64,000 nt of DNA, taken from NCBI RefSeq assembly GCF_029760955.1, contig NZ_CP121682.1:5022001-5086000 (forward strand), given 5' to 3'. Below the pieces are notes generated by a model that did no database searches, was not told the DNA's origin, and was given only the letters and a program-made list of their open reading frames with translations. A program made the position numbers and the translations under genes. Below, one piece after another: positions 15,077-29,786 of this stretch. The DNA comes from Streptomyces cathayae. GTDB taxonomy: Bacteria > Actinomycetota > Actinomycetes > Streptomycetales > Streptomycetaceae. How positions within the stretch are numbered: the first letter of the stretch is position 1; each line of letters opens with the position of its first letter.

Positions 15077-15087
15077 CCACGTGTCTG

Positions 15088-15161
15088 TGCGCCGCCAGGG
15101 ACTCGAACCCCGGACCCGCTGATTAAGAGTCAGCTGCTCTAACCAACTGAGCTAGCGGCGC
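15088..15161 (-). tRNA. tRNA-Lys (anticodon CTT), second copy
   Basis: Identical over 74 bases to the tRNA at 815-888, with the same acceptor stem, CTT anticodon loop and T arm. Both copies point the same way, forming a direct repeat about 14.3 kb apart. The 5' ten bases overlap the end of the gene at 15152-15769. Confidence 0.97.
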
Positions 15162-15769
15162 CTGCTGACGTCGTAGACATTAGCACCCTGGTCGGCAGGA
15201 GGAAAAATCGATATCCGCACGGCCGCGCGCGCCGCCCGTACGGCCGCCCAGAGCAGCACCTCCGGGCCCGGCAGCCAGGGGTGACGCGTGTCCGGGGCGA
15301 CCAGCCAGCGCGCGTCGGAGCGGTCCGCCCGCTCGCCCGGATCCGGCGCCGGAACGGTCACCGCGTCGCCGGTGCCGTGGCACAGCAGGGGCGGAACGGC
15401 GCCGGTGCGACCCGCCTCCCCGGCCTTCCTGCCGCGGGCGTCCCACTCCTCCCACTCCAGCAGCGCCGGCAGCCGCTGGGCGGTGCCGGGCGTCGAGAAC
15501 AGCAGCATCCGGCCACGGAACTCGGCCACCGGACCGGAGCCCGGCCCCTCGTCCCACATCCGGTCCAGCATCCGGCGCCCGAAGGTCGAGGGGGCGCTCG
15601 CCACGTCGAAGGCGGAACCGCAGGGCAGCACGACGGGAGCGTGCGGCCGCTCCTCCCAGAGCGAGAGGGTGCTGCGCGGATACGTTCCTGCGGAGGCGAG
15701 CCAGGCGGCGCCGTCCGGGGTGACACCGCTGACGTCGGATGCCTTGCGTGCACTGCGTGTGCTGCTCAT
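15152..15769 (-). CDS. Prim-pol-like (bifunctional DNA primase/polymerase N-terminal family) protein, tentative
   Basis: The 205-residue protein begins with a short polar leader followed by GVTPDGAAWLASAGTYP. The segments RPHAPVVLPCGSAFDVASAP, GRMLLFSTPGT and APDTRHPWLPGPEVLLWAAV follow the layout of small Streptomyces proteins annotated as bifunctional DNA primase/polymerase domain proteins. I see no clear catalytic acidic triad, so it may be a non-catalytic or regulatory member. The last codons and stop (TAG at 15154-15152) lie inside the tRNA-Lys gene, an overlap of ten bases. Family assignment is by pattern recall only. Confidence 0.65.
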   Translation of the reverse strand: MSSTRSARKASDVSGVTPDGAAWLASAGTYPRSTLSLWEERPHAPVVLPCGSAFDVASAPSTFGRRMLDRMWDEGPGSGPVAEFRGRMLLFSTPGTAQRLPALLEWEEWDARGRKAGEAGRTGAVPPLLCHGTGDAVTVPAPDPGERADRSDARWLVAPDTRHPWLPGPEVLLWAAVRAARAAVRISIFPPADQGANVYDVSRRR

Positions 15770-15932
15770 GCAGTCTGTCTACCCGCGGTGAGGGAACGGT
15801 TTCCCAGGGTTGCGGGAATCCGGGACACCGGGGCGGGGAGGGAGGTATCTTGCCCACCTGGCATATGCCACGCCTGTTCGAGGGGGTGGCGGCCGACCGA
15901 CCACGCAGGGCACACGACCGTGCCCACACCGC

Positions 15933-16298
15933 TCACACCGGGTCGGCGGACCCCCGGCCCTCACCCCCGTGCAGCAGCTCCCGACCGAACTCGATCATCT
16001 TCTTCGCGTAGTCCTCGGTCCACTCGGCCCGCTCGGCGATGGCGGCCGGCGTCAGCCGGTCGAAGCGCCGCGGATCGGCCAGCTGCGCCGCCGCCACCGC
16101 CTGGAACTCCACCGCCCGGTCCGTCGCCGCGCGGAACGCGAGCGTCAGCTCCGTCGCCCGCTCCAGCAGCGCGCGCGGATCGTCGATCGACTCCAGGTCG
16201 AAGAAGTGCTCCGGATCGGCGGCCGCCTCCGCGGGCTCGAACAGCAGGGGCGCGGGGCGTAGCCGCGGTCGGTCCCGGTGCGGCGTGGGCTCCGCCAT
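15933..16298 (-). CDS. Small conserved hypothetical protein
   Basis: The 121-residue, probably cytoplasmic and mostly helical protein has an acidic, Ala-rich centre (FDLESIDDPRALLERATEL, AAIAERAEWTEDYAKKMIEF). No signal peptide, Cys pair or known catalytic motif is seen. ATG 16298 has GGGAGA six bases upstream. A longer in-frame extension to 16439 lacks support. Function unknown. Confidence 0.65.
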   Translation of the reverse strand: MAEPTPHRDRPRLRPAPLLFEPAEAAADPEHFFDLESIDDPRALLERATELTLAFRAATDRAVEFQAVAAAQLADPRRFDRLTPAAIAERAEWTEDYAKKMIEFGRELLHGGEGRGSADPV

Positions 16299-16431
16299 GT
16301 CGTCTCCCTTGTGCTCGTCCTTCTCGTCACACGCGCCGCACACACCTACACGTACGTCACGCCGGCCCGCGGGCAAGCGGACCACCGTCCATTGTCCCGC
16401 GCCCTGACAAGAGGGCCCGAGGCCCATGTCC

Positions 16432-17715
16432 TCAGGCACCGGCAGAATGGCTTCCCAGCCCTCCGGACCATATGCGTGTGCCGCTTATTCCCAGCCGGGG
16501 GGCCTTGAGAGCACCTGCCGAACCCGGGGCGCCTCCGTGTCTGTCAAGCACCTTCCGGACCGCTTCGGTCAGTGAAGCCGCCCGCGCGTCGTCGGAGCCG
16601 CTGACGATGTGGTTCATCACGTAGCCGAAGGCGATGCCGTGCTCGGGATCGGCGAGGGCGAGTGAGCCGCCACGGCCGGTGTGGCCGAAGGCGTTCGGCC
16701 CGGTCATGGGGTTGTCGTCCGTGGGCAGCATGTAGCCGCTGCTGAAACGGCTCGGGATCACCATTACCCGGTCTTTCCCGCCGGCCTGTTCCTCGGTCGC
16801 CGACGCCAGTTTCTCCGGGGTGAGCAGGCGCACGCCGTCGACCTCGCCGATCAGCGCGGCGTACATGCGGGCCAGGGCCCGTGCGGTGCCGATGCCGTTT
16901 GAGGACGGGAGCTCGGCGGCCTGCACTTCCGGGGAGTCGAAATCGATCGCGGCGGGGTCGGTGACCGCGAACGCACGGTTGCTGAAGGATTTCGGTCGCG
17001 CCAGGCGGAGACCTGTTCGCGGAGTTCCTCGGGAACGGACTCGACAGGGACGGTGGTGAGATCGACGGTCGGTCGCCGGTACACCATGCGGCTGACCCGG
17101 CTCCGTTCACTCGCCGGCAAGCCGATGAAGAAGTCCGACCCCAGGGGTTCCGCGATCTCCTGGGCGACGAGGCGGCCCGGCGAGCGGCCGGAGACCCGGC
17201 GGATCACCTCACCGACCAGCCACCCCCCCCCAGGTTCGGCCGTGGTACCCGTGTGCGGTGCCCGGAGTCCACAGGGGGCGCTGGTTCGCCAGGGCCGCTG
17301 CCATGGGATCCCAGGCCAACGCTTCTGTCAGTGGCAGCGGTTGATCAAGCGCGACCAGGCCGACCCGGTGGGACAGGAGCCAGCGCACGGGGATGTCTGC
17401 CTTGCCGTTCGCCGCGAACTCCGGCCAGTACTTCACCACCGGTGCGTCGAGGTCCAGCAAGCCGCGCTCGACGAGCAGGTGTGCTGCGGTCGCAGTGACT
17501 CCCTTGGTCGCCGAGTAGACCAGTTGCAGGGTGTCCCGTGTCCACGGTCGGCCGGTCTCGGGGTCGGCGACGCCGCCCCAGAGGTCCACCACCGGCCGAC
17601 CGTGCTGGTAGACGCACACGGCCGCGCCGATGTCCCCGTGCTGGGTGAAGTTCTTCACGAACGCTTCGCGGACCGGCTCGAATCCGGGTGCCACCTCACC
17701 GTCGATCGTCGTCAT
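16432..17715 (-). pseudogene. Frameshifted beta-lactamase-family serine hydrolase
   Basis: Three reading-frame pieces assemble into one EstB/LACTB-like hydrolase. Piece 1 (17715 to about 17221) has the nucleophile motif SATKG and GYHGRTWG. Piece 2 (about 17230-16995) continues EVIRRVSGRSPGRLVAQEI. Piece 3 (about 16990-16432) contains the SNGIGTARALARMYA helix and the HTGRGG (KTG-like) box. The first break lies at a run of nine G on the coding strand (17223-17231), where eight would restore the frame. The second lies near 16990-17000. Two separate breaks make a true pseudogene more likely than one sequencing error. It marks the start of an accessory patch next to an IS remnant. Confidence 0.75.
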
Positions 17716-17756
17716 GCGCTCATCCTGGCTGCCTCCCTTGCTGGAGTAGCCGATGT

Positions 17757-18036
17757 CCCCCTCTTGGACCTGCCCGCCGCCTGCGGAACCCGGAACCGGC
17801 CCGACGGCCCGATTTCCTCCTCCACCCGGGCCCGGCCGGCCTCGGCGGCCAGGTGCTCGTCCATCTCCGCCTCCAATGCGGCCTGCATCAGGTGCTGGGC
17901 CGGTTCGTGCAGCAGCCCGCCCCGCCCATCAGCCGCAGCCCTGCCCACGGGCCTTCTCGGCCGCGAGCGCGGCCAGCTCCTCCAGCAGCTCGCCGGACAG
18001 ACCGTTCGGCGACACCGGCATCGACTTCACGTCGGT
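17757..18036 (-). mobile_element. IS256/mutator-family transposase remnant
   Basis: The translation GLLHEPAQHLMQAALEAEMDEHL (around 17915-17850) resembles the N-terminal segment of IS256-family transposases. Just upstream, in another frame, lies LSGELLEELAALAAEKARG. Frames are broken and the catalytic core is absent, so it is inactive. No inverted termini were identified by eye. It sits in the 550-bp gap between the hydrolase pseudogene and the hypothetical gene at 18270; the rest of that gap shows nothing else. Confidence 0.5.
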
Positions 18037-18269
18037 GCCCTGAACACTTCTGTCAGCCGCGGCAAGCGACACGCAGCCCAAGGTCTCGATCCGGTGATCC
18101 GTCGTCGTACTCCTCGGATGACTCCTTCGGGGAGGCTCACACCTGATGATTCATGACACTCCCCGGCACGCGGGCTGGACGGTAAAGGTGGCGCTGTGTA
18201 CGGCGCACGAACATCGGCGAAGCAGTCCGGCGGGATGGGCGGGCCTGGTAATGGCAACGGGCGATCAGT

Positions 18270-19604
18270 TCAGGCGGCGGCTGGATGCCCGGCGGCCTTG
18301 CCGGTGGCGTCCCGTCGCATGGCGGTCATGCCCAGGTCCGCCATGCGGGGCACGAAGGCGACGTCGAGTTCGTCGACCGGGTGGATCAGGCCCCGCTCGC
18401 ACGTCTCCCCCAGCCACACCGTGCAGTCGGCGGGGTAGGCAGGGTTGACGCCGATCTCGCCCTTGGGGAGGAACCCGTTGAACGGCGCCCGGATCTGGTG
18501 GTGGTTCCAGTAGTTCCAGGCCCGAAGGGCCTTGGCCTGCTCGAAGGCGAGGTAGAGCTGCGGGTAGCGCTGAAGAATGCGCATTTCGCGGAAGAGTGTC
18601 TGCCCCAGCAGGGACGGCGCAGCCTTGGCAAGGCTGTCGAAGTCCTGGTCGCGGAAGGTGAAGATGGTCGCGTCCTGGCCGGGGTCGACGGCCAGAGCGG
18701 TGAGTAGGTGGGAGAGGCGGTCTCGGGTGTACTCCGCTGCTCCGGGGGCGAGCGGGGGCTCGATGTCGGCGATCAGGTCGTGTAGGCGCTGGTGGTCGGG
18801 GTGGAAGCGGGACAGGTCGAACAGCTTGTCCATGCCGCTGACCGCGGAGAACGCCAGACGCTTGTAGAGGCGGTTGTTCATCTCGCCGACCTCCGCGAGT
18901 GCCTTCGTCTCGGTGCTGGTGGAGTGGAGCATCAGGTACTCCGACAGCACCTCGAAGTACACGTAGCCCAGGAACGGCAGATTCTGGACGGCAGCGGCGA
19001 GCTGGTCCACAAACGTGCCCGGCGCCGTCCGGCGTCCGGCAGCGCCTGCCAGGGCCACGTCCAGGAAGGGGGCGGCCGTACGGATCTGATGCAGCGCTCT
19101 CCTGCGCAGCCGGAGGTCCTCGGCCTTGGTGAGGAAACTGCGGTGATCCAGGTAGGTGCCCAGGTGGACGCGGCCGAGCCGCAGGTAGTCGATGCCCCTG
19201 GCCGGCGCAGGGGCGGTGGGCTTGATCTCGATCATCAGAGTCTGAGTGTGCGACTTGGTCTGTAGCAGGTAGGCGCCGAGGTTGTGCGGGCGCAGGCCGG
19301 CGGGGGTCTCGGTCAGCGGTGCGCAGTACAGCGCGGCGAGCAGGCATCCGGAGGAGGAGTAGAGCTGGCCGCTGGCCCGGATGGCGTCCAGGGCTGTCGT
19401 GGTGTGCATCAGATGGATCGGGCGACCGCTGGTGAGCGCCTGGATCATGGCGTTGTGGGCGAGCAGATGGCCGCCGGGGGTGTCGTGCTGGAGTCGGCGC
19501 CGCCAGTCGTCCTCGCTCTCGGCGCACCCGGCCGGGACGGGGCGGATGCGGGGGTGGGTGTAGTCGGTGTGGGCGTCGTCGAGGTCGGTGTCCACAAGAG
19601 GCAC
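18270..19604 (-). CDS. Hypothetical protein with possible ADP-ribosyltransferase-like N-terminal motif
   Basis: The 444-residue protein belongs to no family I recognise. The N-terminal part (about residues 60-130) reads PIHLMHTTTALDAIRASGQLYSSSG and then NLGAYLLQ. This resembles the first NAD-binding strand and helix of ART/DarT-like folds (H-T-T...I..SG.L.S). The middle is helical with many aromatic residues, and the C-terminus has YWNHHQIRAPFNGF and CERGLIHPVDELDVAF. GTG 19604 has AGGAG seven bases upstream. It lies ten bp downstream of the HD-domain gene, so the two are almost certainly co-transcribed. The ART idea is an inference that needs profile comparison. Confidence 0.6.
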   Translation of the reverse strand: MPLVDTDLDDAHTDYTHPRIRPVPAGCAESEDDWRRRLQHDTPGGHLLAHNAMIQALTSGRPIHLMHTTTALDAIRASGQLYSSSGCLLAALYCAPLTETPAGLRPHNLGAYLLQTKSHTQTLMIEIKPTAPAPARGIDYLRLGRVHLGTYLDHRSFLTKAEDLRLRRRALHQIRTAAPFLDVALAGAAGRRTAPGTFVDQLAAAVQNLPFLGYVYFEVLSEYLMLHSTSTETKALAEVGEMNNRLYKRLAFSAVSGMDKLFDLSRFHPDHQRLHDLIADIEPPLAPGAAEYTRDRLSHLLTALAVDPGQDATIFTFRDQDFDSLAKAAPSLLGQTLFREMRILQRYPQLYLAFEQAKALRAWNYWNHHQIRAPFNGFLPKGEIGVNPAYPADCTVWLGETCERGLIHPVDELDVAFVPRMADLGMTAMRRDATGKAAGHPAAA

Positions 19605-19614
19605 GAGAGGTCTC

Positions 19615-20373
19615 CTACTGGCCGGGCGTGAGGAAGCGTCGGGCATCGGCGAGGGCGTGCTGGGAGTCGGCTCCGTCAAGGGCGGCCTGCTCGCTGCGCA
19701 CGACGAGGGCAAAGGCGGCCGGGGGCAGCCAGTCGGGCACCGGAATGCGCAGCCGGGCCAGGTCCGGCCACCACCGCTGAAGCGGCAGGCGATAGCGGTC
19801 CAGGCAGTCGGCCGCCTTGAGGACGTCGACGAGATGCGGAGCGCGCCGGTAGGCGCACTTCTGCTGTGCGGTGAAGTTTTCGTAGGGCACGTCGTGCACG
19901 GCGATCGCCTGCGCCGCCCGGTGCAGCGCGGCCGCCGGGACCTCGCGGCCCATCGCGCGGGTGACCGTGTCGGTGCGGCGGCGGAACCACGCCGCCGCTC
20001 GTTGTCCGTGACCGAGGTCGGTCCGATCATCGCGCCGCCGGCAGTCGTGGACTGCCCCGGCGGCACAGAGCGCCGCGACGTCGTCGCCCTCCAGCCCGTA
20101 CTCCTGGGCCAGGAGTACGGCGAGCAGGCTGACGCGGGCGTTGTGACGGACGCCGTGGTTGGAATCGGCCTGGCGCTCGGTGGTGAACCACGACCTGGCC
20201 GGTACGAGCATGCGTCCCGGGCGTGGGAAGCTGGGCGCGGCGTCGAAGTTCGCCGGACGGTTGTCCGTAATCCACCCAAGCGTCATCTGGTCCATCGGCT
20301 GGTGGGCGGGCAGTCGGTGCTGGGAGGCGAGTTCATGCAGGCAGGCGCGGCCGGGCACAGTGGTATCGGTCAT
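19615..20373 (-). CDS. HD-domain phosphohydrolase-like protein
   Basis: The 252-residue protein shows the HD metal-binding pattern: RHNARVS, then GAVHDCRRRDDRTDLGHGQRAA, then a later AVHDVPYENF. It is predicted to hydrolyse a phosphate ester or nucleotide with a divalent metal. An N-terminal stretch of about 80 residues precedes the HD core. ATG 20373 is preceded by AAGGA at good spacing. Only 33 bp separates it from the divergent glycosyltransferase start. It is the first gene of a two-gene unit with the ART-like hypothetical. Substrate unknown. Confidence 0.75.
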   Translation of the reverse strand: MTDTTVPGRACLHELASQHRLPAHQPMDQMTLGWITDNRPANFDAAPSFPRPGRMLVPARSWFTTERQADSNHGVRHNARVSLLAVLLAQEYGLEGDDVAALCAAGAVHDCRRRDDRTDLGHGQRAAAWFRRRTDTVTRAMGREVPAAALHRAAQAIAVHDVPYENFTAQQKCAYRRAPHLVDVLKAADCLDRYRLPLQRWWPDLARLRIPVPDWLPPAAFALVVRSEQAALDGADSQHALADARRFLTPGQ

Positions 20374-20406
20374 GGCGTCCTTCACACAGATGGGTACGGA
20401 ACAGGC

Positions 20407-21264
20407 GTGAAGCTGGGCGTGGCGATCCTGACTATGGGCACCCGGCCCAAGGAGCTGGCGGAGCTGCTGGCCTCGGTCCATGCGCAGACGACCGGGGCGG
20501 CGCGGACGGTGGTGGTGGCCAACGGGTGTGCGATGCCCGATCTGCCGCCGTGGGTCGAGACGGTGCAGCTGGCGGAGAACCTGGGGGTGACCGGCGGCCG
20601 CAACGCCGCCCTGGAGCACCTGTCGGACATGGACCTGGTGCTGGACCTGGACGACGACGGCCTGCTGGTTTCCGACGACGTCTTCGCCACGATCACCGCG
20701 CTGTACGCGGCGGATGCGCGGCTGGGGATCGTCGGCTTCCGTATCGCCGACGAGAGTGGAGTGACCCAGCGCCGCCACGTGCCCCGGCTGCGGGCCGGTG
20801 ACTCGATGCGCGGCGGGGAGGTGACCGGCTTCCTCGGCGGAGCCCACGTCCTGTCCGTGAAGATGCTGCAGGAGGTCGGCCACTGGCCGGACATGTTCTT
20901 CTTCGCGCACGAAGAGACCGACATGGCCTGGCGGGCGATCGACGCCGGCTGGCGGGTGCGTTACGCGCCCCAGCTGCTGCTCCAGCACCCGCGGACCTCC
21001 CCGGCCCGGCACGCGTTCTTCTACCAGGTCAACGCCCGTAACCGGGTCTACCTGGCACGCCGTCACCTGCCCGCGCTGCTCGTCCCCGTCTACCTGGGGG
21101 TGTGGGTGGCCCTGACGCTGGCCCGCACCCGCAGCCTTTCCGGGCTGCGGGCCTGGTTCGGCGGCTTCGCCGAGGGCTGGCGCACCGAGTGCGGGCGCCG
21201 GAAGCCGATGCGCTGGCGCACCGTGTTCCGACTGGCCCGCCTCGGCCGCCCCCCGGTGATCTGA
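20407..21264 (+). CDS. Family 2 glycosyltransferase
   Basis: The 285-residue GT-A fold enzyme has the N-terminal strand LGVAILTMGTRPKELAELL, NLGVTGGRNAAL, a DLDDDG (DxD-type) metal/nucleotide-sugar site, GFLGGAHVLS and HEETDMAWRAIDAGW with the acid/base-type ED pair. A hydrophobic segment near residues 220-235 could contact the membrane. It probably transfers a sugar to a carrier or small molecule. GTG 20407 is chosen. It is divergent from the HD gene and convergent with the epimerase, with a 5-bp gap. Confidence 0.85.
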   Translation: MKLGVAILTMGTRPKELAELLASVHAQTTGAARTVVVANGCAMPDLPPWVETVQLAENLGVTGGRNAALEHLSDMDLVLDLDDDGLLVSDDVFATITALYAADARLGIVGFRIADESGVTQRRHVPRLRAGDSMRGGEVTGFLGGAHVLSVKMLQEVGHWPDMFFFAHEETDMAWRAIDAGWRVRYAPQLLLQHPRTSPARHAFFYQVNARNRVYLARRHLPALLVPVYLGVWVALTLARTRSLSGLRAWFGGFAEGWRTECGRRKPMRWRTVFRLARLGRPPVI

Positions 21265-21269
21265 GCGAC

Positions 21270-22316
21270 TCACGCAGCGGCCTGGGCCTCGGTGTGCAGC
21301 CACGCCGGAATCGCCCGTGGGGTCCGCTCCAGCCACTTCAGGTAGCGGCTCACCCCGTCCTCGATGTCCACCTGCGGAGCCCAGTCCAGCACGCTGCGCA
21401 TGCGGGTGATGTCGGCGCAGGCGCCGAGCGGGTCGCCCTGTGGCCGCGGGGTCTCGATGATCCGCGCACCAGGGTGCCGGCGGCGCACCAGGTCGGCGAC
21501 CTGCCGAATGGAGGTGGCGCGGCCGGTTCCGACGTTGAGCGTCGTACGGTCCGCGCGCTCGGTCACCGCTGACAGCAGGGTCGCTTCCGCGATGTCGTCG
21601 ACGTGCACGAAGTCCCGCACCTGGTGGCCCCCGCCGTTGAGGTGCAGCGGCAGACCGAGCGCGGCCCGCATGGCGAACCAAGCCACCACCCAGCTGTGAC
21701 TGTTCTCCTTGACCACCTGCGGCTCCCCGTAGACGGAGAAGTACCGCACGATCGCGTACGAGTTGTCGGCGCCGCCCAAGGCCAGGGCGGTCTGATGCTC
21801 GCCCCACAGCTTGGTGTTGGCGTAGACCGACCCGGGCGTCAGCACGTCCTCCTCGCTGAAGCGGGCCCCCGCATCTGGCGAACCGTTGCCGACGCCGTAG
21901 ACGCTGGCCGAGGAGACGAAGACCAGCCGCCTCAGCATGCCGCTGTGCCGGGCCGCGGCATCCAGCACGGTCTGGGTACCGCGGATATTGGCTTCCAGCG
22001 CCGCAGCCGGATTGCGGGTGCACTCCGCGACGTCGGCCAGCGCCGCGGCGTGGATGACGTAATCACTGCGCGAGATCAGGTCGTTCATCAGCGCGGCGTC
22101 GGTGATGTCGCCGGCGACGACGTCCGGGTCCCCGGGCGAGATGCCGAACACGGAGGAGCAGACGGAACTGCCATAGGCGTCCAGTCGGCCCACGGCAAGC
22201 GGTTTGGCGCCCAGTGCGCGGAGTTTGTGCACGATGCGGCTGCCGACCAGTCCGAAGCCTCCGGTCACGGTGACGGTGGCGTTGGACAGATCAGCGAAGC
22301 GCTCCCTGGTGTTCAC
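21270..22316 (-). CDS. NAD-dependent epimerase/dehydratase (extended SDR)
   Basis: The 348-residue protein has the Rossmann motif TGGFGLVGSRIV (GxxGxxG), SSASVYG with the catalytic Ser, the YANTK (YxxxK) pair, and the downstream VRYFSVYGEP and VRDFVHVDDIA segments typical of GalE/RmlB-like sugar-nucleotide epimerases. It would supply a modified nucleotide sugar, plausibly to the neighbouring GT2. GTG 22316 is chosen; no strong ribosome site is visible, and a stable hairpin (22333-22373) lies just upstream. Confidence 0.87.
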   Translation of the reverse strand: MNTRERFADLSNATVTVTGGFGLVGSRIVHKLRALGAKPLAVGRLDAYGSSVCSSVFGISPGDPDVVAGDITDAALMNDLISRSDYVIHAAALADVAECTRNPAAALEANIRGTQTVLDAAARHSGMLRRLVFVSSASVYGVGNGSPDAGARFSEEDVLTPGSVYANTKLWGEHQTALALGGADNSYAIVRYFSVYGEPQVVKENSHSWVVAWFAMRAALGLPLHLNGGGHQVRDFVHVDDIAEATLLSAVTERADRTTLNVGTGRATSIRQVADLVRRRHPGARIIETPRPQGDPLGACADITRMRSVLDWAPQVDIEDGVSRYLKWLERTPRAIPAWLHTEAQAAA

Positions 22317-22332
22317 GCGAGGATCAGCCCTT

Positions 22333-22373
22333 CTCGACGGCGCCGCGCGGATACGCGGCGTCACGCCGTCGAG
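22333..22373 (-). repeat. Stable hairpin in the epimerase leader
   Basis: CTCGACGGCG (22333-22342) pairs with CGCCGTCGAG (22364-22373), and an inner CCGCG/CGCGG stem (22343-22347 with 22354-22358) extends it. It lies 16 bp before the epimerase start. It could limit translation or be a leader element. Confidence 0.6.
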
Positions 22374-22506
22374 GACACCACCAGGCCCCGCCGGGCTCCA
22401 GGGGACGACTGTGTGGCCGGTGTGTGCCCGGCCTCGGTGAAGCCTCCTCAACCCCCGTCCGAGTACGGCATGGTGGAGGGGCGGCGTCAGTATCGGAGGG
22501 GGCGAC

Positions 22507-23820
22507 ATGGATCTGGACCGTCATCCGCTGGCGCACCTGCGCCGCAGTCACCACTGGTCCGGAGAGGACCTCGCCCGTCTGCTCCGTGCGCAGGCCCGTA
22601 GGCGTGGCCTGCGCAGCGGTATCGACCGAAACCGGATCTGGCTCTGGGAGACAGGAACTACACCGAGCGAGGAGAGCCAGTTGCTGCTGGCAGAGGTCCT
22701 CGATGTTCCCACCGCCGCGATCGAACATCTCCGATGGCCCGACTGGCTGCCCGCCTTCGAACAGCCCGCCCCATTCAGCGCTTCGGGAAGCCGGGCCGCC
22801 CTGAGAGAGGTGCAGATCACCCGCATGGACCGACGATCCTTCCTGGTCCTCAGCAGCAGCACCCTCATCGAGGTCGCTGCCGACTGGGCCCGCATCGAGC
22901 CACAGCACCTGTCCCAGGCCCTGAGTGGACAACAGATCGACGAGGAACTCCTGAGGTGGTTGGAGCAGCGTTCCAGCGAACTGCGCACCCTTGCAACCGG
23001 GCCGCACCGGCAGGTCTCTGGCCTCATCGACGCCCATCTGAACACTGCGATCGACCTGATCACCCAGGACCGCTACAGGTCAGCAATCGGCCGCCGCCTC
23101 CACGCCGTGGCCGCCGACCTCGCGCACTGCGCCGCATGGCTGCGCTTCGATGCCGACCGGCACGCCGACGCCCAACGCCACTGGCAGGCCGCCGTCCACG
23201 CCGCGCATCAGGCCGGGGACCGCGATCTCGCCGCGGTCGCACTGTCCGACCTCGGTTACCAGGCAACCTGGTTGTCCAGGCCCGCCGACGCGATCGAAGT
23301 GCTGGAACATGCCCGCTCCCGGACCCGTACGCCGGCCGCCCGCTCCCTGCTCGACGTACGCCGCGCACGGGCTTGCGCCGTACTCCGAGACCACACTGGA
23401 ACCGGGCGTGCCCTGGCATCCGCCGAGGCCGAGCTGGACCGGATTCGCCCGCAGGAGACACCCCCCGTGGTGTCCTGGATGTCGATGGCAGATGTCAACG
23501 CCGACGCCGGACGCTGCTGGCTCGATCTCGGCGACCCCGGTCGTGCCGGCAACGCAATCGACTCCGGACTGGGCGAGCTCGATCCACGCCGGTCCCGTAC
23601 CAGAGCGGTGTTCCTGACTTACCGGGCCGAGGGCTCGCTCCATGACCGCGACGCCTCAGCTGCCGCGGCCGATGCCCGCGCCGCTCTCGACACCGCCCTC
23701 GACTCCGGGGCCACTCGCTGCATCGACCTCGCTTCCGCACGCATCCGCCGCCTGGACGACCGGACCGAGCAACCGATGATCGAGCTGCGCGAGTACGCCC
23801 GGGAACGACTCGCGGGGTGA
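22507..23820 (+). CDS. HTH/TPR-type transcriptional regulator
   Basis: The 437-residue protein starts with an Xre-like helix-turn-helix (about 8-70, with RNRIWLWETGTTPSEESQLLLAEVL). A long helical region of TPR-like repeats follows (about 150-420, e.g. AAVALSDLGYQATWLSRPADAIEVLEHA). An RRSFLVLSSS segment links the two parts. ATG 22507 has GGAGGG six bases upstream. It is divergent from the epimerase, so it is a candidate regulator of the HD/GT2/epimerase cassette. The ligand or partner is unknown. Confidence 0.8.
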   Translation: MDLDRHPLAHLRRSHHWSGEDLARLLRAQARRRGLRSGIDRNRIWLWETGTTPSEESQLLLAEVLDVPTAAIEHLRWPDWLPAFEQPAPFSASGSRAALREVQITRMDRRSFLVLSSSTLIEVAADWARIEPQHLSQALSGQQIDEELLRWLEQRSSELRTLATGPHRQVSGLIDAHLNTAIDLITQDRYRSAIGRRLHAVAADLAHCAAWLRFDADRHADAQRHWQAAVHAAHQAGDRDLAAVALSDLGYQATWLSRPADAIEVLEHARSRTRTPAARSLLDVRRARACAVLRDHTGTGRALASAEAELDRIRPQETPPVVSWMSMADVNADAGRCWLDLGDPGRAGNAIDSGLGELDPRRSRTRAVFLTYRAEGSLHDRDASAAAADARAALDTALDSGATRCIDLASARIRRLDDRTEQPMIELREYARERLAG

Positions 23821-24183
23821 TCCGACAGCGGCCGGGGGCTGGCCCTGAGTGTCGGCAAACGACGGCCAGTTCGTCCGGTGAGCGCACCAGGGCGATGCCG
23901 TCGAGTTCAGGTTCGCGGCCCTGGGCGCACTCGGCTGCCGCGGCAGCGGTGAAGTCCGCGCACAGCGTTGCCTCGGGGAGGGCCGGGGCGAGGTAGGTCA
24001 GACCGACACTGCCGTTCTCGCCGCGGGTGACGACCCACAGCTTCAGGTCCTCGGGGGCCGCGCAGGTCCCCGACGCCTCGACCAGTTCCCGCGCGGCCTG
24101 GCCGGCCAGTGCCGACTCGTCCAGCACCGCCCGGCCCTGGGGAGGCTCCAGGGACCCCCGGGCAGCGGCCCGGGGCGGCCGTA
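23821..24183. other. Decayed coding region, no intact gene
   Basis: The stretch has high coding-like composition but no clean start-to-stop gene. The minus-strand reading around 24140-23870 (APEDLKLWVVTRGENGSVGL, LPEATLCADFTAAAAAECA) looks protein-like and may be a remnant. No family is recognised. It joins directly to the truncated DUF5753 gene. Confidence 0.4.
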
Positions 24184-24534
24184 GATGCACGCCGGTTCTC
24201 GTTCGTGCTGGAGGAGTCGGTGTTGCGGTACCGGCTGTGCAGCGCGGAGACCATGGCGGCACAGCTTGGTCACCTGCTCGGGGTCATGGGTCTCCAGAAC
24301 GTTGCCGTGGGGCTCATCCCGTTCTCAGCTCAACGAGCCGTGTGGCCCATGCCCACCTTCACGATCTTCGACGACGCCAGGGTGCACGCCGACACCCTGG
24401 ACGCTGCCGTCACCCTCACGCAGCCCGGCCAGGTGGAGCTGTACAGCCGAGCCTTCGAACGGTTGTCACAGGAAGCAGTGAGGGGAGCGGCTGCACGTGC
24501 TCTCATAGCGGGTGCGTTGGCATCCCTGGACTGA
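24184..24534 (+). pseudogene. Truncated DUF5753 (Scr1-family antitoxin-like) regulator, C-terminal half only
   Basis: About 116 residues match the DUF5753 sensor domain: FVLEESVLRYRL, MAAQLGHLLGVM, VGLIPFSAQRAVWPMPTFTIFDD and VELYSRAFERLSQEAVRGAAARAL. Full-length members have an N-terminal Xre helix-turn-helix and about 280 residues; that half is missing, and upstream in-frame codons are low-complexity. No DUF397 partner gene, which usually follows, is seen. It probably marks the right edge of the accessory patch. Confidence 0.75.
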
Positions 24535-24555: not shown

Positions 24556-25944
24556 TCAGGGCCGCCATTCGATCCGGTGTTCCGTGAGGTGGGCCAGGAG
24601 TGAATGGTTGGCCTCCCAGCCGTCCGGGAACTTCACGAGGGTGCCCAGCTGGACCGGTTCCGTCGACGGGTAGGCGTCCAGCAGGTCGCTCACGCCCGCC
24701 CGGCACACCACGATGCAGGCGTGCCGGTGGCGGGAGGCCAGGACGCACAGTCTGCCGGTCTCCAGGTGGAAGGCGGTGGCGTCGGGGCGGCCGGAGAGGG
24801 GGTGGAGTACGACGGTGACGTCGTACTCGCGGCCCTGGAGCCGGTTCGCCGTGTCGACGACCACGTCCGTCACACCGAGTTCCGTGAGCGCCGACCGGAC
24901 CGCCGCCGCCTGGTCGCGGTGGGCGGTGCCGACGGCGATGCGGTCGGCGGTGAGCGGGACGGGGTCGGGGGTGGGGCGCTCGGAGGTCGTGGCGCCTTCC
25001 CTGTCCAGCAGGCGGCGGACCACCAGGGCCACCGCCCGGACCGCCTCCGGATCGGTGCGCGGGGTGTGCCGGGCGGGCAGCTCCAGCAGGCCCCAGCCGG
25101 ACTCGGCCGCCTCGTCGATCACCCGGTCCGGACCCGAGCCGTCCGACGGCACGGCGAGGGCGAGCCGCCGGTCGCCGGGGCCGGTGCCGCTGCGGAACGG
25201 CGTGTACGGGTAGAACGCGTCCGACACCAGGGGCGCCGCCGAGGCGGGCAGCCGCCACGACACCGGCAGGCGGTGCTGCGGCAGTTCGGGATTGTGGGCG
25301 AGCAGGGTCGTCACGGCGGACGCGGACGGGTCGTAGGACAGGCCCGCCCACTGCTCGCTACCCACGATCGAGAACGGGTCCAACTGCCCCGGATCGCCCA
25401 CGAACAGCGCCCGCTCGAACAGCCCCGCCACGGCGAGCAGCGCGTCCGAGCGCATCTGGTACGCCTCGTCGACGATCGCGTGCGCCCATGGTTCGACGCC
25501 CTTGACGTGCGCCCACTTGGCGGCCGTGGAGATGACCACGTCGAGCCCGGCGAGATCGGCGGCCTTCGCCGACTTGCGGACGTTGTCCAGCCCGTCGAGC
25601 GCCTTGTCGTACGGGTCGGTGTCGCTGCTGTGCAGCCGGCCGACCGGCAGGTCCGGGCTCTTCTCGGCGAGCCGCAGGACCAGGTCGTCGACCTGGGCGT
25701 TGGTCTGCGCCACCACCATCAACGGGCGCCCCGCCTCGGCGAGTTCCAGCGCAGCGCGGACAACCAGCGTGGACTTGCCGGCGCCGGGCGGGGAGTCGAC
25801 GACCACACCGCGCGCGGTGCCGTGCAGGGTGTCGCGCAGGATCGCGTCGGTGGCACGGGCGGCCGCCGCGCCGGGGTCGAAGCCCGCGTCGGCGGTTGCC
25901 GCCCCGGTGGTCACGGTCTCGGGGGGCATGGCCTCGGTGGTCAC
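24556..25944 (-). CDS. UPF1-like SF1 AAA helicase/ATPase
   Basis: The 462-residue NTPase has Walker A DSPPGAGKST, the motif Ia-like VVAQTNAQVDDL, motif II VDEAYQ, motif III VGDPGQLDPFS, motif V-like DTANRLQGREYDVTVV and the motif VI-like LASRHRHACIVV. This is the SF1 superfamily-1B/UPF1-like arrangement, expected to translocate on DNA or RNA. No nuclease domain is fused. The GTG start overlaps the stop of the preceding gene (GTGA), with AGGAGG upstream, so the three-gene unit is tightly coupled. It is the last gene of that unit, and the role is probably in DNA processing, repair or defence. Confidence 0.85.
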   Translation of the reverse strand: MTTEAMPPETVTTGAATADAGFDPGAAAARATDAILRDTLHGTARGVVVDSPPGAGKSTLVVRAALELAEAGRPLMVVAQTNAQVDDLVLRLAEKSPDLPVGRLHSSDTDPYDKALDGLDNVRKSAKAADLAGLDVVISTAAKWAHVKGVEPWAHAIVDEAYQMRSDALLAVAGLFERALFVGDPGQLDPFSIVGSEQWAGLSYDPSASAVTTLLAHNPELPQHRLPVSWRLPASAAPLVSDAFYPYTPFRSGTGPGDRRLALAVPSDGSGPDRVIDEAAESGWGLLELPARHTPRTDPEAVRAVALVVRRLLDREGATTSERPTPDPVPLTADRIAVGTAHRDQAAAVRSALTELGVTDVVVDTANRLQGREYDVTVVLHPLSGRPDATAFHLETGRLCVLASRHRHACIVVCRAGVSDLLDAYPSTEPVQLGTLVKFPDGWEANHSLLAHLTEHRIEWRP

Positions 25945-27593
25945 AGCAGGTCCTCCTCGGTCACCGGGTCGGCGGCCTCCGGTGTGGCGGCTGATGCGCC
26001 GGGCGGGCCGCCGTGGGTCCACGGGGTCTCCTCCGGGTCGGGGAGCTTCGCCCCGCCGCGCGGCTCGTGCTCGAACAGGGTGAAGCAGAGCCGGTCGCCC
26101 TTCTCCGGCACCGAACCCGCCTCGGGCTCCTTGCCGCGGCCCATCTTGTCCAGGATCCGCAGGACGAGCAGGGACCCGCCCGCTTCCGCAGCTTCCGCAG
26201 CCTCTACGGCTTCCCCGGCTTCCCCGGCTTCCGTGGCCTCCATGGCCACGAACTCGGCCGTCTGCGGCTTGCCGCCCAGGGAGCGGTACACCCTGGTCCG
26301 CTCGCCCAGGTACGGGCGGTCGTCCGTCCGGACGGTGACCAGCGGGCGGGGGCTCGGCCGCTTGCTCTCGCTGTACGCCATGACGACATCGACGACCTCG
26401 CCCGCGAACGCCTCCCCGGACAGCCGCCGGCCCGCCATCACCAGCGGGTCGTCCAGGGCCTCCTGGGCCTCCAGCCGGGCCTGCTCCCGCTCGCGCGTGG
26501 CGAGCTTGTTGGCCGCCGTCACCGCGTCGTCGCGGCGCGGCTGCGGCGGCTCACCGGCCAGTACCCGGTCCCGGTGACCGGTGAACGACCAGCGGTCGCG
26601 CGTCCACCGCTCCTCGACGCGCGCGCCCTCCGGCAGCGCGCGCAGCAGGTCCAGGCCCCGCCACACCGCGTCCCAGGTGGGCCGGGTACGGCTCTGGACC
26701 AGCGCGCGGATCTCCCGCTCGGCGGCGGCCAGCGCGCCGAGCCGGTCGTCGGCCTCCAGACCGTCCTCCGCGGCGGCGAGCGCGCTGCGGGCGCGGTCGT
26801 ACCGCTCGACGGCCGGGGCGAGCAGCTTGTTGTCGAACGCGGGGTCGGTCGCCGGGCCCGCGGGCGGACACAGCAACTGTCCGCCGGCGTCCCGCGCCAG
26901 CTCCGCCTCCTGCGCCGCCTCGGCCCCGGAGCGTCCCTCGGGCGGGTCGATCCAGGCGAGCAGTGCCCCCAGGTGCTGGTCCTCCAGTGTGGACTGGCCG
27001 GTCGCCCAGTGCCGGCCCAGCAGATCCGTCATGGCGGTCAGGAGCGATGAGCCGGGCACCCGGGCCCGCTCCCCGAAGTGGGTCAGCCACCGGCCCAGCA
27101 ACGGCACCCGGGGCGGCGCCGGGAAGGGCGCTTCCGGGTCCTGCTCCGCGGTGCGCCGGAACCGGGTGGAACGGCCGAGGAGCCGCACGAGGTCCACACC
27201 GGCCCGGCTCGGCACGATCAGCTGCGGCGCGTCCGCGCACAGCTCGACCTCGACCTTGACCCGCTTTCCGGTCTCCGGATCGGTCTCGCTGCGTTCCGCG
27301 GCCTCCACCGCCTCGGCGCAGTCGTCCACGTACGGCAGGACCACGTCGGCCAGTTCGGCCAGGAACGCGAACCTGAGGTCCCGGTCGCGCGGCTGCGGCA
27401 CGGCCAGCAGCCGCGGCGCGTCCCGGTCGGTGCCCACCAGCGCGCCGAGCGGGGCGCCCGCCTCACCGGCGGTGATCAGCGGCACGAACACCAGCGGCCG
27501 CGCGGACAGGTGCCGGTGCCGGACGGTGGCGGCGGGCTGGGCGCGGCCGGTGCTGACGGCCTCGAGGCGGGCCAGGGTGGCGATCAGCGACAA
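25941..27593 (-). CDS. Uncharacterised middle protein of the nuclease-helicase operon
   Basis: The 550-residue protein belongs to no family I recognise. It starts at TTG with GGAGGT six bases upstream and overlaps the nuclease gene by ten bases. Features: an N-terminal mixed region with RHLSARPLVFVPLI, a helical Ala/Arg-rich middle (RYDRARSALAAAEDG, TREREQARLEAQEAL, likely coiled coil), a 25-residue Glu/Ala repeat near residue 460 encoded by 9-bp DNA repeats, and an acidic C-terminus (PVTEEDLL). No catalytic motif or Cys cluster is seen. It may be a scaffold linking nuclease and helicase. Confidence 0.75.
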   Translation of the reverse strand: MSLIATLARLEAVSTGRAQPAATVRHRHLSARPLVFVPLITAGEAGAPLGALVGTDRDAPRLLAVPQPRDRDLRFAFLAELADVVLPYVDDCAEAVEAAERSETDPETGKRVKVEVELCADAPQLIVPSRAGVDLVRLLGRSTRFRRTAEQDPEAPFPAPPRVPLLGRWLTHFGERARVPGSSLLTAMTDLLGRHWATGQSTLEDQHLGALLAWIDPPEGRSGAEAAQEAELARDAGGQLLCPPAGPATDPAFDNKLLAPAVERYDRARSALAAAEDGLEADDRLGALAAAEREIRALVQSRTRPTWDAVWRGLDLLRALPEGARVEERWTRDRWSFTGHRDRVLAGEPPQPRRDDAVTAANKLATREREQARLEAQEALDDPLVMAGRRLSGEAFAGEVVDVVMAYSESKRPSPRPLVTVRTDDRPYLGERTRVYRSLGGKPQTAEFVAMEATEAGEAGEAVEAAEAAEAGGSLLVLRILDKMGRGKEPEAGSVPEKGDRLCFTLFEHEPRGGAKLPDPEETPWTHGGPPGASAATPEAADPVTEEDLL

Positions 27594-28882
27594 GGGGCCA
27601 CCTCCGGGCGGCCGGTGAGGGCCGGCGCGTCGGCGGAAGCCCGCGCGCCGACGGGGGCCTGCGCGTCGACGGGGGCCTGTGCGCCGGCGAGGGCCTCCGC
27701 CCGCAGCGCCGCCGCCCGGCGCAGGGCGGCCACCGTCGGATCGTCGGGATCACCGATCTCACCGCGGGCCGCGGCCAGCACGTCCTCGACCGTCGTCAGG
27801 GAGCCCAGTTCGGCGCGGACCGGGCGGCCCAGGGAGGTCACCGCGCCCTGCGCGCGGGAACGGTCCCGGCAGTGGAAGGCCAGCTCGCACGCGGACAGGC
27901 ACTCCGGCGCGTAGCTCGCCGGGACCGACTCCACGGCCTCCGTGAGCCGCTCGCGGGGCAGCCCGGGTGCGAAGCAGATGCCCTCGGGGAGCGCGCCGGC
28001 GATGTCCTCGATCCGGGTGAGCCGGGCCAGCTGGCGGGCGGTCACCGCGCGCTGCTTGCGCACGTCCACGGCGGACGCGGTCGGCAGGTTGGAGAAGTCC
28101 TTCGGGCACACCAGCAGGATCCTGTGCCGCACGCGGGGGGCCGGGACGGCGGTGAGGCGGGCGGCGACTTGCTCCAGCGCCAGCACGTACACCGCCGCCT
28201 GCCGGGCCGCCGCGCCGACCTTCGCCGGGTCCGCCGCCCCGTCCAGCAGGGGGAAGGACTTGATCTCCACGACCGTCCAGCTGCCGTCCGGGTGCACCAC
28301 CACCGCGTCCGGTTCCAGGAAGGCCGGCGAGCCCGCGACGTCCAGCGCGAGCAGGGGATGGTCGAGCAGGGTCCACTCGCCCCGCGCCCGGGAGGCCTCG
28401 TCCAGCGCCAACTCGGTGCGCGCGGCGCGCCCCTGGGGGCCGGACGCGGTCAGGTCCGGCACCCGCGCGCCGGCGGGCGGTTCCGCGGAGCGGTCCAGCC
28501 TCTCGTGGACGAGCCGCAGCAGCTCCGTACCGCCGTCCGCCTTGACCCGGGCCTCGAACGCGTTGCCCCGGACGAACGCGAACTGGGACTGGCCGAAGAC
28601 CGAGGGGGAGCCCAGCGCGCCCGCCAGTCTCGCCTTGTCCACGCCCGCGCCGTCGAGGATCGCGCGGCGCGCGCAGCCCGGGTTGGCGGCCAGGGCGGCC
28701 AGGGCGCGTGCGTCCAGCGCCTTCGCCGACACGTCCGGACCGCGCAGCTCAGCGAGTCGGTGCCGGAGCGGCCTGGGCTCCTTCCCCCCGGCCGGAGGGG
28801 GAAGCGCCGCCCGGCTCGGCTTCCGGGGCGGGCCCTGGCTCGAACTGCCGCTGCCGTGGCCGCTGTCGTGGAAAGTGCTCAC
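27584..28882 (-). CDS. Cas4/AddB-like PD-(D/E)XK nuclease with predicted Fe-S cluster
   Basis: The 432-residue protein shows a RecB-type nuclease core: Asp192 in EPDAVVV and Glu206-x-Lys208 in VVEIKSF, followed by the QAAVYVLALE helix. One N-terminal Cys (Cys70, NPGCARR) and a C-terminal C328-x3-C332-x5-C338 set reproduce the four-Cys 4Fe-4S arrangement of Cas4 and AddB. It probably has exonuclease activity on DNA ends. The start is uncertain: GTG 28882, or TTG 28912. Its 5' end overlaps the 3' end of the PAP2 gene by about 130 bp. It is the first gene of the nuclease / unknown / helicase operon. Confidence 0.82.
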   Translation of the reverse strand: MSTFHDSGHGSGSSSQGPPRKPSRAALPPPAGGKEPRPLRHRLAELRGPDVSAKALDARALAALAANPGCARRAILDGAGVDKARLAGALGSPSVFGQSQFAFVRGNAFEARVKADGGTELLRLVHERLDRSAEPPAGARVPDLTASGPQGRAARTELALDEASRARGEWTLLDHPLLALDVAGSPAFLEPDAVVVHPDGSWTVVEIKSFPLLDGAADPAKVGAAARQAAVYVLALEQVAARLTAVPAPRVRHRILLVCPKDFSNLPTASAVDVRKQRAVTARQLARLTRIEDIAGALPEGICFAPGLPRERLTEAVESVPASYAPECLSACELAFHCRDRSRAQGAVTSLGRPVRAELGSLTTVEDVLAAARGEIGDPDDPTVAALRRAAALRAEALAGAQAPVDAQAPVGARASADAPALTGRPEVAPCR

Positions 28883-29786
28883 CCGCGGAAGTCTGGCATC
28901 CGGCACTGACAATCGGGGAACCCGGGACGGGAGAGGCCACCGGGACCGGCGCCGGACGCGGCAGCAGACGGGCCCTCACCCGGTCCGAGTACCGCGTCAC
29001 CACGGGGGCGAGCAGCAGTCCGGCGCCCATCACGGCGGCACCCGCGACCGCGTCCAGGAAGTAGTGGTTGGCGGTGCCCATCACCACGACGACCGTCACC
29101 AGCGGGTAGACGACGGCGGCCGTCCTCGCCGCTCGCGCCGCCCACGTCGCTTGCGCTGTCTGTGCTGTCTGTGCCGTCTGTGCCGTTCGGGTTCTGCCGA
29201 TCTGCCACAGGATCACACCGCACCACAGGGCCCAGCCCACATGCAGGCTCGGCATCGCCGCGTACTGGTTGGTCAGCCCGCCCAGGCCCCGCGGGGCGCT
29301 GGCCTCACCGGCCCACCAGCCGTAGGAGCTGTACTGGGCCATGGTGTCGACGAAGCCGTGGCTCGCGTCGAGCAGCCTGGGCGGGCAGGTGGGCAGCAGG
29401 GTGAAGCCGATCAGCCCGATGAAGGTGGACGTCATCAGCCAGGTGCGGGCGGCGCGGTAGCGCACCGCGTGGGAGCGGAACAGCCAGACCAGGAGCGCGG
29501 GCGTCACCAGGTAGTGCAGCGACGCGTACCAGAAGTCGGCCGGTACGCCCAGCCACGGTTCGCGCGTGAACAGCCGGTTGAGCGGGTGCTCGGCGTTGAG
29601 GTGGAGCGCCTGCTCGATGCGGAGGATCGCCAGTCCGTGGTCCACGGCGTCGGTGACGTCGCCCCGGACCAACAGGCGCCCCGCCGAGTAGCAGGCGTAC
29701 ACGAGGAGGATCAGCGGCAGCTCGGTCCACCAGCGCAGCCGGATCGCCGGGGCCCCTTCGGTACCCGGTGTCTCGGTGTGCGGCAT
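28749..29786 (-). CDS. PAP2-superfamily membrane phosphatase
   Basis: The 345-residue integral membrane protein has about six hydrophobic segments. It contains the phosphatase-like motifs LLPTCPPRLL, AAMPSLHVGWAL (PSxH) and GTANHYFLDAVAG (H...D), as in the Ipt/Aur1-like PAP2 group. It is predicted to dephosphorylate or transfer a lipid phosphate at the membrane. An AQT repeat encoded by about 9-bp DNA repeats (around 29155-29195) lies between two helices. ATG 29786 with a GGGGGAGG leader is preferred over ATG 29867. The Pro/Gly-rich tail overlaps the nuclease gene and may be dispensable. Confidence 0.85.
   Translation of the reverse strand: MPHTETPGTEGAPAIRLRWWTELPLILLVYACYSAGRLLVRGDVTDAVDHGLAILRIEQALHLNAEHPLNRLFTREPWLGVPADFWYASLHYLVTPALLVWLFRSHAVRYRAARTWLMTSTFIGLIGFTLLPTCPPRLLDASHGFVDTMAQYSSYGWWAGEASAPRGLGGLTNQYAAMPSLHVGWALWCGVILWQIGRTRTAQTAQTAQTAQATWAARAARTAAVVYPLVTVVVVMGTANHYFLDAVAGAAVMGAGLLLAPVVTRYSDRVRARLLPRPAPVPVASPVPGSPIVSAGCQTSAGEHFPRQRPRQRQFEPGPAPEAEPGGASPSGRGEGAQAAPAPTR

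Follow-up and report, generated by a model that had tools for sequence, protein, structure and literature searches.

A three-gene nuclease, bridging protein and helicase operon of Streptomyces, probably laid out like a divided Dna2, with accessory relatives beside defence systems

A 64,000-nucleotide stretch of DNA from Streptomyces cathayae (contig NZ_CP121682.1, positions 5,022,001 to 5,086,000; referred to here as the window) carries three minus-strand genes, named NUC, MID and HEL in their order, that overlap head to tail. Their products probably form a three-chain machine for processing DNA ends, laid out as one Dna2 polypeptide would be if it were cut in three. NUC (27584..28882, minus strand) has a GTG start and encodes an iron-sulphur (Fe-S) nuclease of the RecB/Cas4/AddB type with 432 amino acids (aa); an upstream TTG at 28912 is a possible alternative start. 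MID (25941..27593, minus strand) begins with TTG and encodes a bridging protein of 550 aa, and HEL (24556..25944, minus strand) begins with GTG and encodes the 462-aa core of a UPF1/DNA2-type superfamily 1 (SF1) helicase, for which the list of open reading frames (ORFs) also allows a longer form open from 26022. MID and NUC overlap by 10 nucleotides, and the start of HEL lies in a GTGA overlap with the stop of MID. A preliminary description made from the letters of the window had proposed a three-gene operon with start/stop overlaps; the ORFs lie where it placed them and the set is conserved as a unit.

Judged by sequence and predicted fold, NUC is a RecB/Cas4-type PD-(D/E)XK nuclease with a predicted Fe-S cluster. 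Alignment of NUC sequences places the catalytic residues at Asp192 in an EPD motif (28307..28309, minus strand) and at E206-x-K208 in an EIK motif (28259..28267, minus strand), while the predicted Fe-S ligands are Cys70 (28673..28675, minus strand) and the set C328-x3-C332-x5-C338 (27869..27901, minus strand). Across 82 sequences D192 is kept in 80, E206 in 81, K208 in 80 and each of the four cysteines in all 82, and because they are near-invariant these residues are not there by chance. The residue numbers of the preliminary description (C70, D192, E206, K208, C328, C332 and C338) are exact for the start at 28882, and its assignment of an Fe-S RecB-type nuclease is borne out by structural matches of the predicted fold to Cas4, EXO5, AddB, AdnA and DNA2. 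Matches to designed repeat proteins fell within a short region around residues 60-94; these were set aside as a helical artefact. No model in Pfam, PADLOC or NCBIfam covers NUC; among 68 homologues PDDEXK_1 of Pfam was found in 6, and PADLOC gave scattered weak matches, the commonest being MTase_II (4/68).

The HEL motor is complete, and some 50 residues precede its motif I. The motifs read from its sequence, which we take to be I-VI, include motif I, PPGAGKST (Walker A; residues 52-59; 25768..25791, minus strand), and motif II, D159-E160 (25465..25470, minus strand). Scanned as a 488-aa ORF, HEL exceeded the Pfam cut-offs for AAA_11, AAA_30, AAA_12 and Viral_helicase1, with UvrD_C_2 reaching an E value of 0.16 only. 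Its best profile match in the PDB was DNA2 (4.8e-10), followed by SMUBP-2 and UPF1, and these matches uphold the earlier reading of a UPF1-like helicase with motifs I-VI on a chain of its own. With motif I already at residues 52-59 of the 462 and motif II at 159, no space is left for a stalk or 1B barrel ahead of motif I. These two elements, which precede RecA1 in UPF1-family helicases, are thus not on the HEL chain, and the candidates for both are on MID. The top NCBIfam match of HEL, the ‘PLuB system’ (NF040671, 54.6 bits), was rejected as an identity; it covers the helicase domain only, and no paper on it was found.

The preliminary description found nothing that matches MID, which holds at the level of sequence only. 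MID has no match in PADLOC or NCBIfam, its sole Pfam match is Caa3_CtaG below the cut-off (E 0.051, 13.4 bits against 27.7), its profile finds chance-level matches only among PDB sequences, and neither a viral fold library (at E below 0.001) nor phage records yielded a counterpart. The Pfam names attached to its 92 homologues (Caa3_CtaG in 15, TOBE_2 in 13, GST_C_2 in 8) were discarded as weak and inconsistent. An AlphaFold model (predicted local distance difference test 87.5, predicted template modelling score 0.86) nevertheless allows a fold to be proposed. Residues ~31-240 (26874..27503, minus strand) may adopt a DnaQ/RNase H-like exonuclease fold lacking the D-x-E acids of the Exo I motif of DEDD exonucleases (DnaQ/polB); with the register read from structural comparison, position 37 is V, I or A and position 39 is L or V in 105/105 sequences. 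Residues ~251-392 (26418..26843, minus strand) form a predicted helicase stalk of long helices, assigned by DSSP of the model to 251-274, 278-318, 326-345, 357-381 and 383-392. Residues ~393-508 (26070..26417, minus strand) form a predicted beta-barrel like domain 1B of UPF1-family helicases, which in structural comparison matches the barrels of Senataxin and Sen1. On this model MID appears to supply the stalk and 1B barrel without which HEL comes, together with a dead DnaQ-like exonuclease fold, and it is probably more than a mere scaffold; the earlier picture of a nuclease and a helicase joined by a scaffold therefore holds for its first two members and needs revision for the third. Two segments, 123-129 (P-Q-x-x-V-P-N/S) and 196-205 (W-A-T-G-Q-S-x-x-E-D), are near-invariant and among the most conserved parts of MID.

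The order of these predicted parts is that of eukaryotic DNA2, namely nuclease, stalk, barrel and helicase 1A-2A. In Dna2 the barrel stands on a two-helix stalk between the nuclease and helicase 1A (excerpts of PMC4716839). The trio also shares with DNA2 a four-cysteine Fe-S nuclease with a D/ExK core, whereas DNA2 is a single chain and the trio consists of three ORFs that gave separate matches per gene in the loci examined. A Dna2 divided among three chains is favoured because the domain order is the same, HEL is without a stalk and barrel of its own, and helices are followed by a barrel in MID; because NUC matches Fe-S RecB-family nucleases including DNA2, and DNA2 is also the best profile for HEL; and because the active residues are intact in the loci of the window's type and the genes are conserved as a unit. 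If this is correct, NUC would be the Fe-S nuclease part, MID a dead exonuclease-like docking domain followed by stalk and 1B barrel, and HEL the RecA1-RecA2 motor. MID would hold motor and nuclease together, and single-stranded DNA would be pulled by HEL and cut by NUC while it threads an Fe-S-stapled tunnel. We infer complex formation, threading, polarity and substrate alike; by analogy with the UPF1-like subfamily, as excerpts of PMC4716839 describe it, HEL may move 5' to 3'.

A single-chain family with the same apparent domain order also exists in bacteria. In nine aligned actinobacterial proteins of the TM0106 family (TIGR03491) the helicase is homologous to HEL (hhalign 99.6%), and the RNase H-like domain retains the D-x-E that MID has lost. 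For NUC and MID no sequence homology to TM0106 was detectable, hhalign slices scoring no better than reversed controls. TIGR03491 matched none of the three proteins; its best score in the S. cathayae genome was 22.3 bits, elsewhere, against a cut-off of 97.45, and none of 6 sampled Streptomyces genomes, S. cathayae included, has a TM0106 protein over the cut-off. The idea of the trio as TM0106 literally split was dropped, since sequence profiles lend it no support in the case of NUC and MID; the family is kept as an architectural analogy. Among 79 genomes, one has both MID and a TM0106 protein over the cut-off, 9 have MID only, 19 TM0106 only and 50 neither, a distribution that does not settle fission of TM0106. 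By this analogy the trio is filed as a set that may work like Dna2 or TM0106 and is a member of neither. Pfam, PADLOC 2.0.0 and NCBIfam do not assign it to a described system, in agreement with the earlier remark that the layout could not be named. At the level of whole proteins PADLOC has no match for MID or NUC and partial helicase matches only, of at most 31 bits, for HEL; a Mokosh (MkoA/MkoC) identity was rejected, its match being confined to the helicase domain.

The operon is conserved as a unit. NUC, MID and HEL occur in this order in all 33 loci retrieved first by means of MID, including the window (L001) and a paralogue from the same genome. All three genes are present in all 57 long loci of the window's type in Streptomyces, here called core loci (gene order was printed for 12 of them), and 45/47 non-core loci have the trio in order. 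In the two exceptions, L169 and L204 of one genus, HEL lies ~36 and ~49 kb away; loss of HEL was rejected in favour of relocation within the genome, and since HEL is still present the trio stays together per genome even when the operon breaks. The first search found MID in 25/25 genomes of the genus (24 relatives and S. cathayae itself, one match being partial) and in 32/41 of all genomes, a sample of the class in 43/44 genomes listed for the genus and 33/349 others, and a sample of the phylum in 14/296. Chance is excluded by this taxonomic depth, and the neighbourhood survey that the preliminary description had suggested speaks against the possibility, raised there, of an unconserved grouping. 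The only genome of the genus without MID among the 44 (G512, 5.8 Mb) also has no full HEL (best match 24 bits) and has probably lost the whole set. Some ORFs in high-GC loci are wrong-strand artefacts of the simple gene caller used.

The core copy has stable, ordinary flanks. On the NUC side of the 57 long loci stand a PAP2 gene (57), a histidine phosphatase gene (56) and a gene for a TPR-type regulator (52), and on the HEL side genes for proteins of 621 aa (51), 485 aa (47) and 368 aa (47). The PAP2 and histidine phosphatase neighbours are not defence genes, and the core loci contain neither gene X, a companion of many relatives described below (0/57), nor the defence genes tested as queries (0/57), nor an adjacent SbcCD pair. 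A tree of 62 loci, built from NUC, MID and HEL concatenated, has all 15 Streptomyces core loci to one side of a branch (support 100); the tree comes from a short IQ-TREE search with Shimodaira-Hasegawa-type likelihood ratio support (SH-aLRT) only, and some branches, e.g. that of L206, are long. The active-site residues are intact in 64/64 core loci, both the NUC D/E/K set and the HEL motifs, of which seven residues are unchanged. The window's copy is probably the vertically inherited and catalytically intact resident version in Streptomyces, and its role is most likely the processing of DNA ends as part of chromosome maintenance.

One feature of the window's surroundings differs from those of its relatives. 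The gene after HEL lies a median of 1.6 kb away in 51/57 core loci and 9.5 kb away in the window, where an extra stretch (15162-24534) separates HEL from its usual downstream gene. This stretch begins beside a tRNA-Lys gene (15087-15161) and contains an NAD-epimerase gene and two fragments, one of DUF5753 and a short one of PF00144 type. The stretch has the look of an insertion peculiar to this strain; a search of it by the tRNA-Lys gene gave no direct repeats of at least 18 bases.

Other copies of the trio are accompanied by gene X, which encodes a coiled coil together with a conserved domain; a scan of one X protein gave no family over the cut-off. X stands directly before NUC in 28/47 non-core loci. 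It was found in 33/392 genomes of a genus sample and in 25/393 of a class sample, with 23 of the latter full-length and all 23 beside MID; in G393 and G545 it is degenerate or fragmentary. A divergent SbcD gene lies beside X in 25 X-bearing loci, 24 of which have SbcC too. After HEL and on the same strand, 12 of these 25 SbcCD-linked loci, some of which are near-copies and not independent, carry Wadjet, of type I (JetA-D) in 7 and type II (JetA2-B2-C2) in 5. Wadjet follows HEL directly in 11 of the 12 (128-228 bases between match ends), with an HA-domain helicase between them in L200. The remaining loci include two with an HA-domain helicase (L197, L201), two with only a weak match to one on the other strand (L219, L239), and nine with other content, unidentified genes or a contig end after HEL, among them L206 with JetA2-B2 on the SbcC side. 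The trio also occurs without Wadjet.

Publicly annotated records show the cassette too. On plasmid NZ_CP108489.1, genes for an SMC family ATPase, SbcD, X, NUC, MID, HEL, DUF3375 (JetA), DUF4194 (JetB), an ATP-binding protein (JetC) and JetD form one run. Plasmid NZ_CP027023.1 has the same gene set but with SbcC/SbcD split into several pieces (L211:1-2251), X, NUC, MID, HEL and JetA-D being long open frames; intact SbcC/SbcD copies of the cassette are found on other records. An HA-domain superfamily 2 helicase directly follows HEL at L163:8910-11147, L168:2797-5043 and L197. It is possibly related to ttrA, a putative helicase gene near Streptomyces replicon ends (PMC8743542, in excerpt).

A Streptomyces clade without SbcCD has other neighbours and includes a second trio in the S. 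cathayae genome itself (L021:5082-9057, also L198). Its proteins are 42-53% identical to those of the window; it has gene X, its nuclease residues are lost, and a DUF4011 protein (PADLOC PDC-S37/Hhe-like) lies downstream, as a DUF4011 protein also does beside L231. Elsewhere in the clade the neighbours are HmaA and HmaB (L236), HmaA (L199), an HKD-SNF2 helicase with Type III Mod and Res (L228, with the same gene clusters at L229 and L232) and a PD-Lambda-1-like protein on the other strand (L233). HmaA labels on L228, L229, L232 and L235 were rejected as weak helicase cross-matches, leaving L199 (the source of the query) and L236 as Hma. At several further loci (e.g. L225, L226, L234, L241, L242) a defence gene was not found or not queried, and most copies in the non-Streptomyces families f80, f81 and part of f3 lack SbcCD, Wadjet, Hma, DUF4011 and HA-helicase genes by the queries used, neighbours there having been gene-called for part of the loci and without library naming. 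Association with defence is thus strong where SbcCD is linked and patchy among the other copies. In Streptomyces the X-bearing copies, often with the SbcCD pair, are accessory and mostly stand beside changing defence systems, and most likely they load on or degrade invader DNA, on which they would act together with SbcCD and the neighbouring system. The preliminary suggestion of a phage-defence role is thus favoured by neighbourhood for many relatives and has no such support for the window's copy, which has ordinary conserved chromosomal flanks. The machine may be one for DNA repair that defence against plasmids and phages has also come to use.

The accessory copies are also divided by catalytic state. 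NUC D/E/K residues are intact in 25/25 SbcCD-linked and 19/19 X-less non-core loci, as in the core; among these 19 X-less loci, the first cysteine position is unreadable in two, two helicase motif positions are changed in one, and HEL is missing from the locus in two. Of 31 loci with X only, 15 are intact and 16 (14 from Streptomyces and two others) have lost NUC residues, by E to L with K to R in nine and D to Q with K to R in five of the Streptomyces loci and by E to A in the two others. All 16 keep the four cysteines and the seven tested helicase residues. In a tree of 80 loci built from MID and HEL, with NUC excluded, the 14 Streptomyces loci form one side of a branch with support of 100. 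This pattern suggests that in these loci NUC is kept for its Fe-S fold without catalysis, in a structural or DNA-holding role, and that cutting may fall to the neighbouring system.

Replicon position was compared for SbcCD-linked copies and the dead-nuclease clade. In five of six near-complete Streptomyces chromosomes (G756, G953, G716, G790, G620) an SbcCD-linked copy lies at most 25 kb from a contig end, in three of them at both ends, while in the sixth (G771) it lies ~0.5 Mb in. Trios of the dead-nuclease clade are at least 0.98 Mb from an end in six near-complete chromosomes, and 1.55 Mb into a 4.5-Mb contig in G703 (two contigs). Full-length MID was found on two Streptomyces plasmids, ~4 and ~13 kb from the record end (the first record being labelled circular), and a third plasmid match, a partial MID, starts 953 bases from the end. 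SbcCD-linked cassettes that lie near the end of a chromosome contig or plasmid record include L219, L222, L239, L240 and L200, with L211 and L212 as plasmid loci. Wadjet and Lamassu are enriched near Streptomyces chromosome ends (PMC10482375, in excerpt), so these cassettes may lie where they do only because Wadjet does; alternatively, they might act at telomeric ends.

Three other explanations of the trio have to be weighed. AddAB and AdnAB share with it an AddB-like Fe-S nuclease fold and the pairing of nuclease with SF1 motor, and the trio could be an AddAB/AdnAB-like presynaptic resection complex with MID as an inactivated second subunit. This is unlikely, since HEL is UPF1/DNA2-like (AAA_11, AAA_12, DNA2 as best PDB profile) and not UvrD/RecB-like, whereas the AddAB/AdnAB motor is UvrD-like; motor and nuclease of the trio, moreover, are on separate small chains. 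The niche is also probably filled already, as S. cathayae has, side by side, two long open frames of 1157 and 1381 aa with PDDEXK_1, which resemble an AdnAB pair. The AddAB-like logic of the preliminary description fits less well than a split Dna2, given the stalk, barrel and dead exonuclease-like fold that MID appears to contribute. It could be argued instead that MID is an unrelated adaptor whose likeness to Dna2 is convergent, and that NUC and HEL work independently, with RNA or R-loops, on which some UPF1-family helicases act, as possible substrates. NUC and MID are without sequence homology to TM0106, and other barrels score close to the UPF1-type barrel, both of which would suit convergence. 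The colinearity with Dna2, a HEL without its own stalk and barrel, the strict co-conservation of three genes and the DNA-acting neighbours of the relatives (SbcCD, Wadjet) make it unlikely.

The third explanation concerns function, and would have the core copy act against phages or plasmids, as a defence system that has become fixed in Streptomyces, instead of as a repair enzyme. Many relatives do stand beside Wadjet, Hma, Type III restriction-modification (RM) or SbcCD genes, but the proposal is unlikely. The core copy, however, is near-universal in the genus (43/44), has the same ordinary genes on both sides in most or all of 57 loci, and is free of X and the tested defence genes in all of them.

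For the accessory copies a broader proposal can be made, tentatively and with the balance tilted slightly against it. SbcCD, X and the trisected Dna2-like set may constitute an undescribed actinomycete accessory module, placed upstream of interchangeable defence systems as a common front end that senses, loads on or degrades DNA ends, with the window's operon as its resident chromosomal relative. The partners would be Wadjet I or II and, in the catalytically dead clade, also Hma, Type III RM and DUF4011 proteins; as an example, the module would resect DNA linearised by Wadjet. Archaea possess Mre11-Rad50-HerA-NurA and eukaryotes MRN with DNA2, and the accessory copies resemble both in that SbcC/SbcD (Rad50/Mre11) adjoin nuclease-helicase genes in many of them. 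The difference from the archaeal set is that HerA/NurA are replaced by the split Dna2-like set, in defence-associated accessory cassettes. No description of such a module was found in the open-access literature (titles and abstract starts of the best-ranked matches), which does not show its absence from print.

If these readings are true, Dna2 has a bacterial counterpart made of three subunits, with a separate protein providing the barrel and stalk of the helicase. Pairing of Mre11-Rad50 with Dna2 starts end resection in eukaryotes, and the accessory form would join Mre11-Rad50 and a Dna2-like machine in one cassette coupled to Wadjet, so that the fate of Wadjet-cut DNA would become testable. 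Nature has also provided, in the pseudo-nuclease clade, a way to test which functions the Fe-S domain has beyond cutting. For the core copy, the question could be tested in ordinary laboratory Streptomyces.

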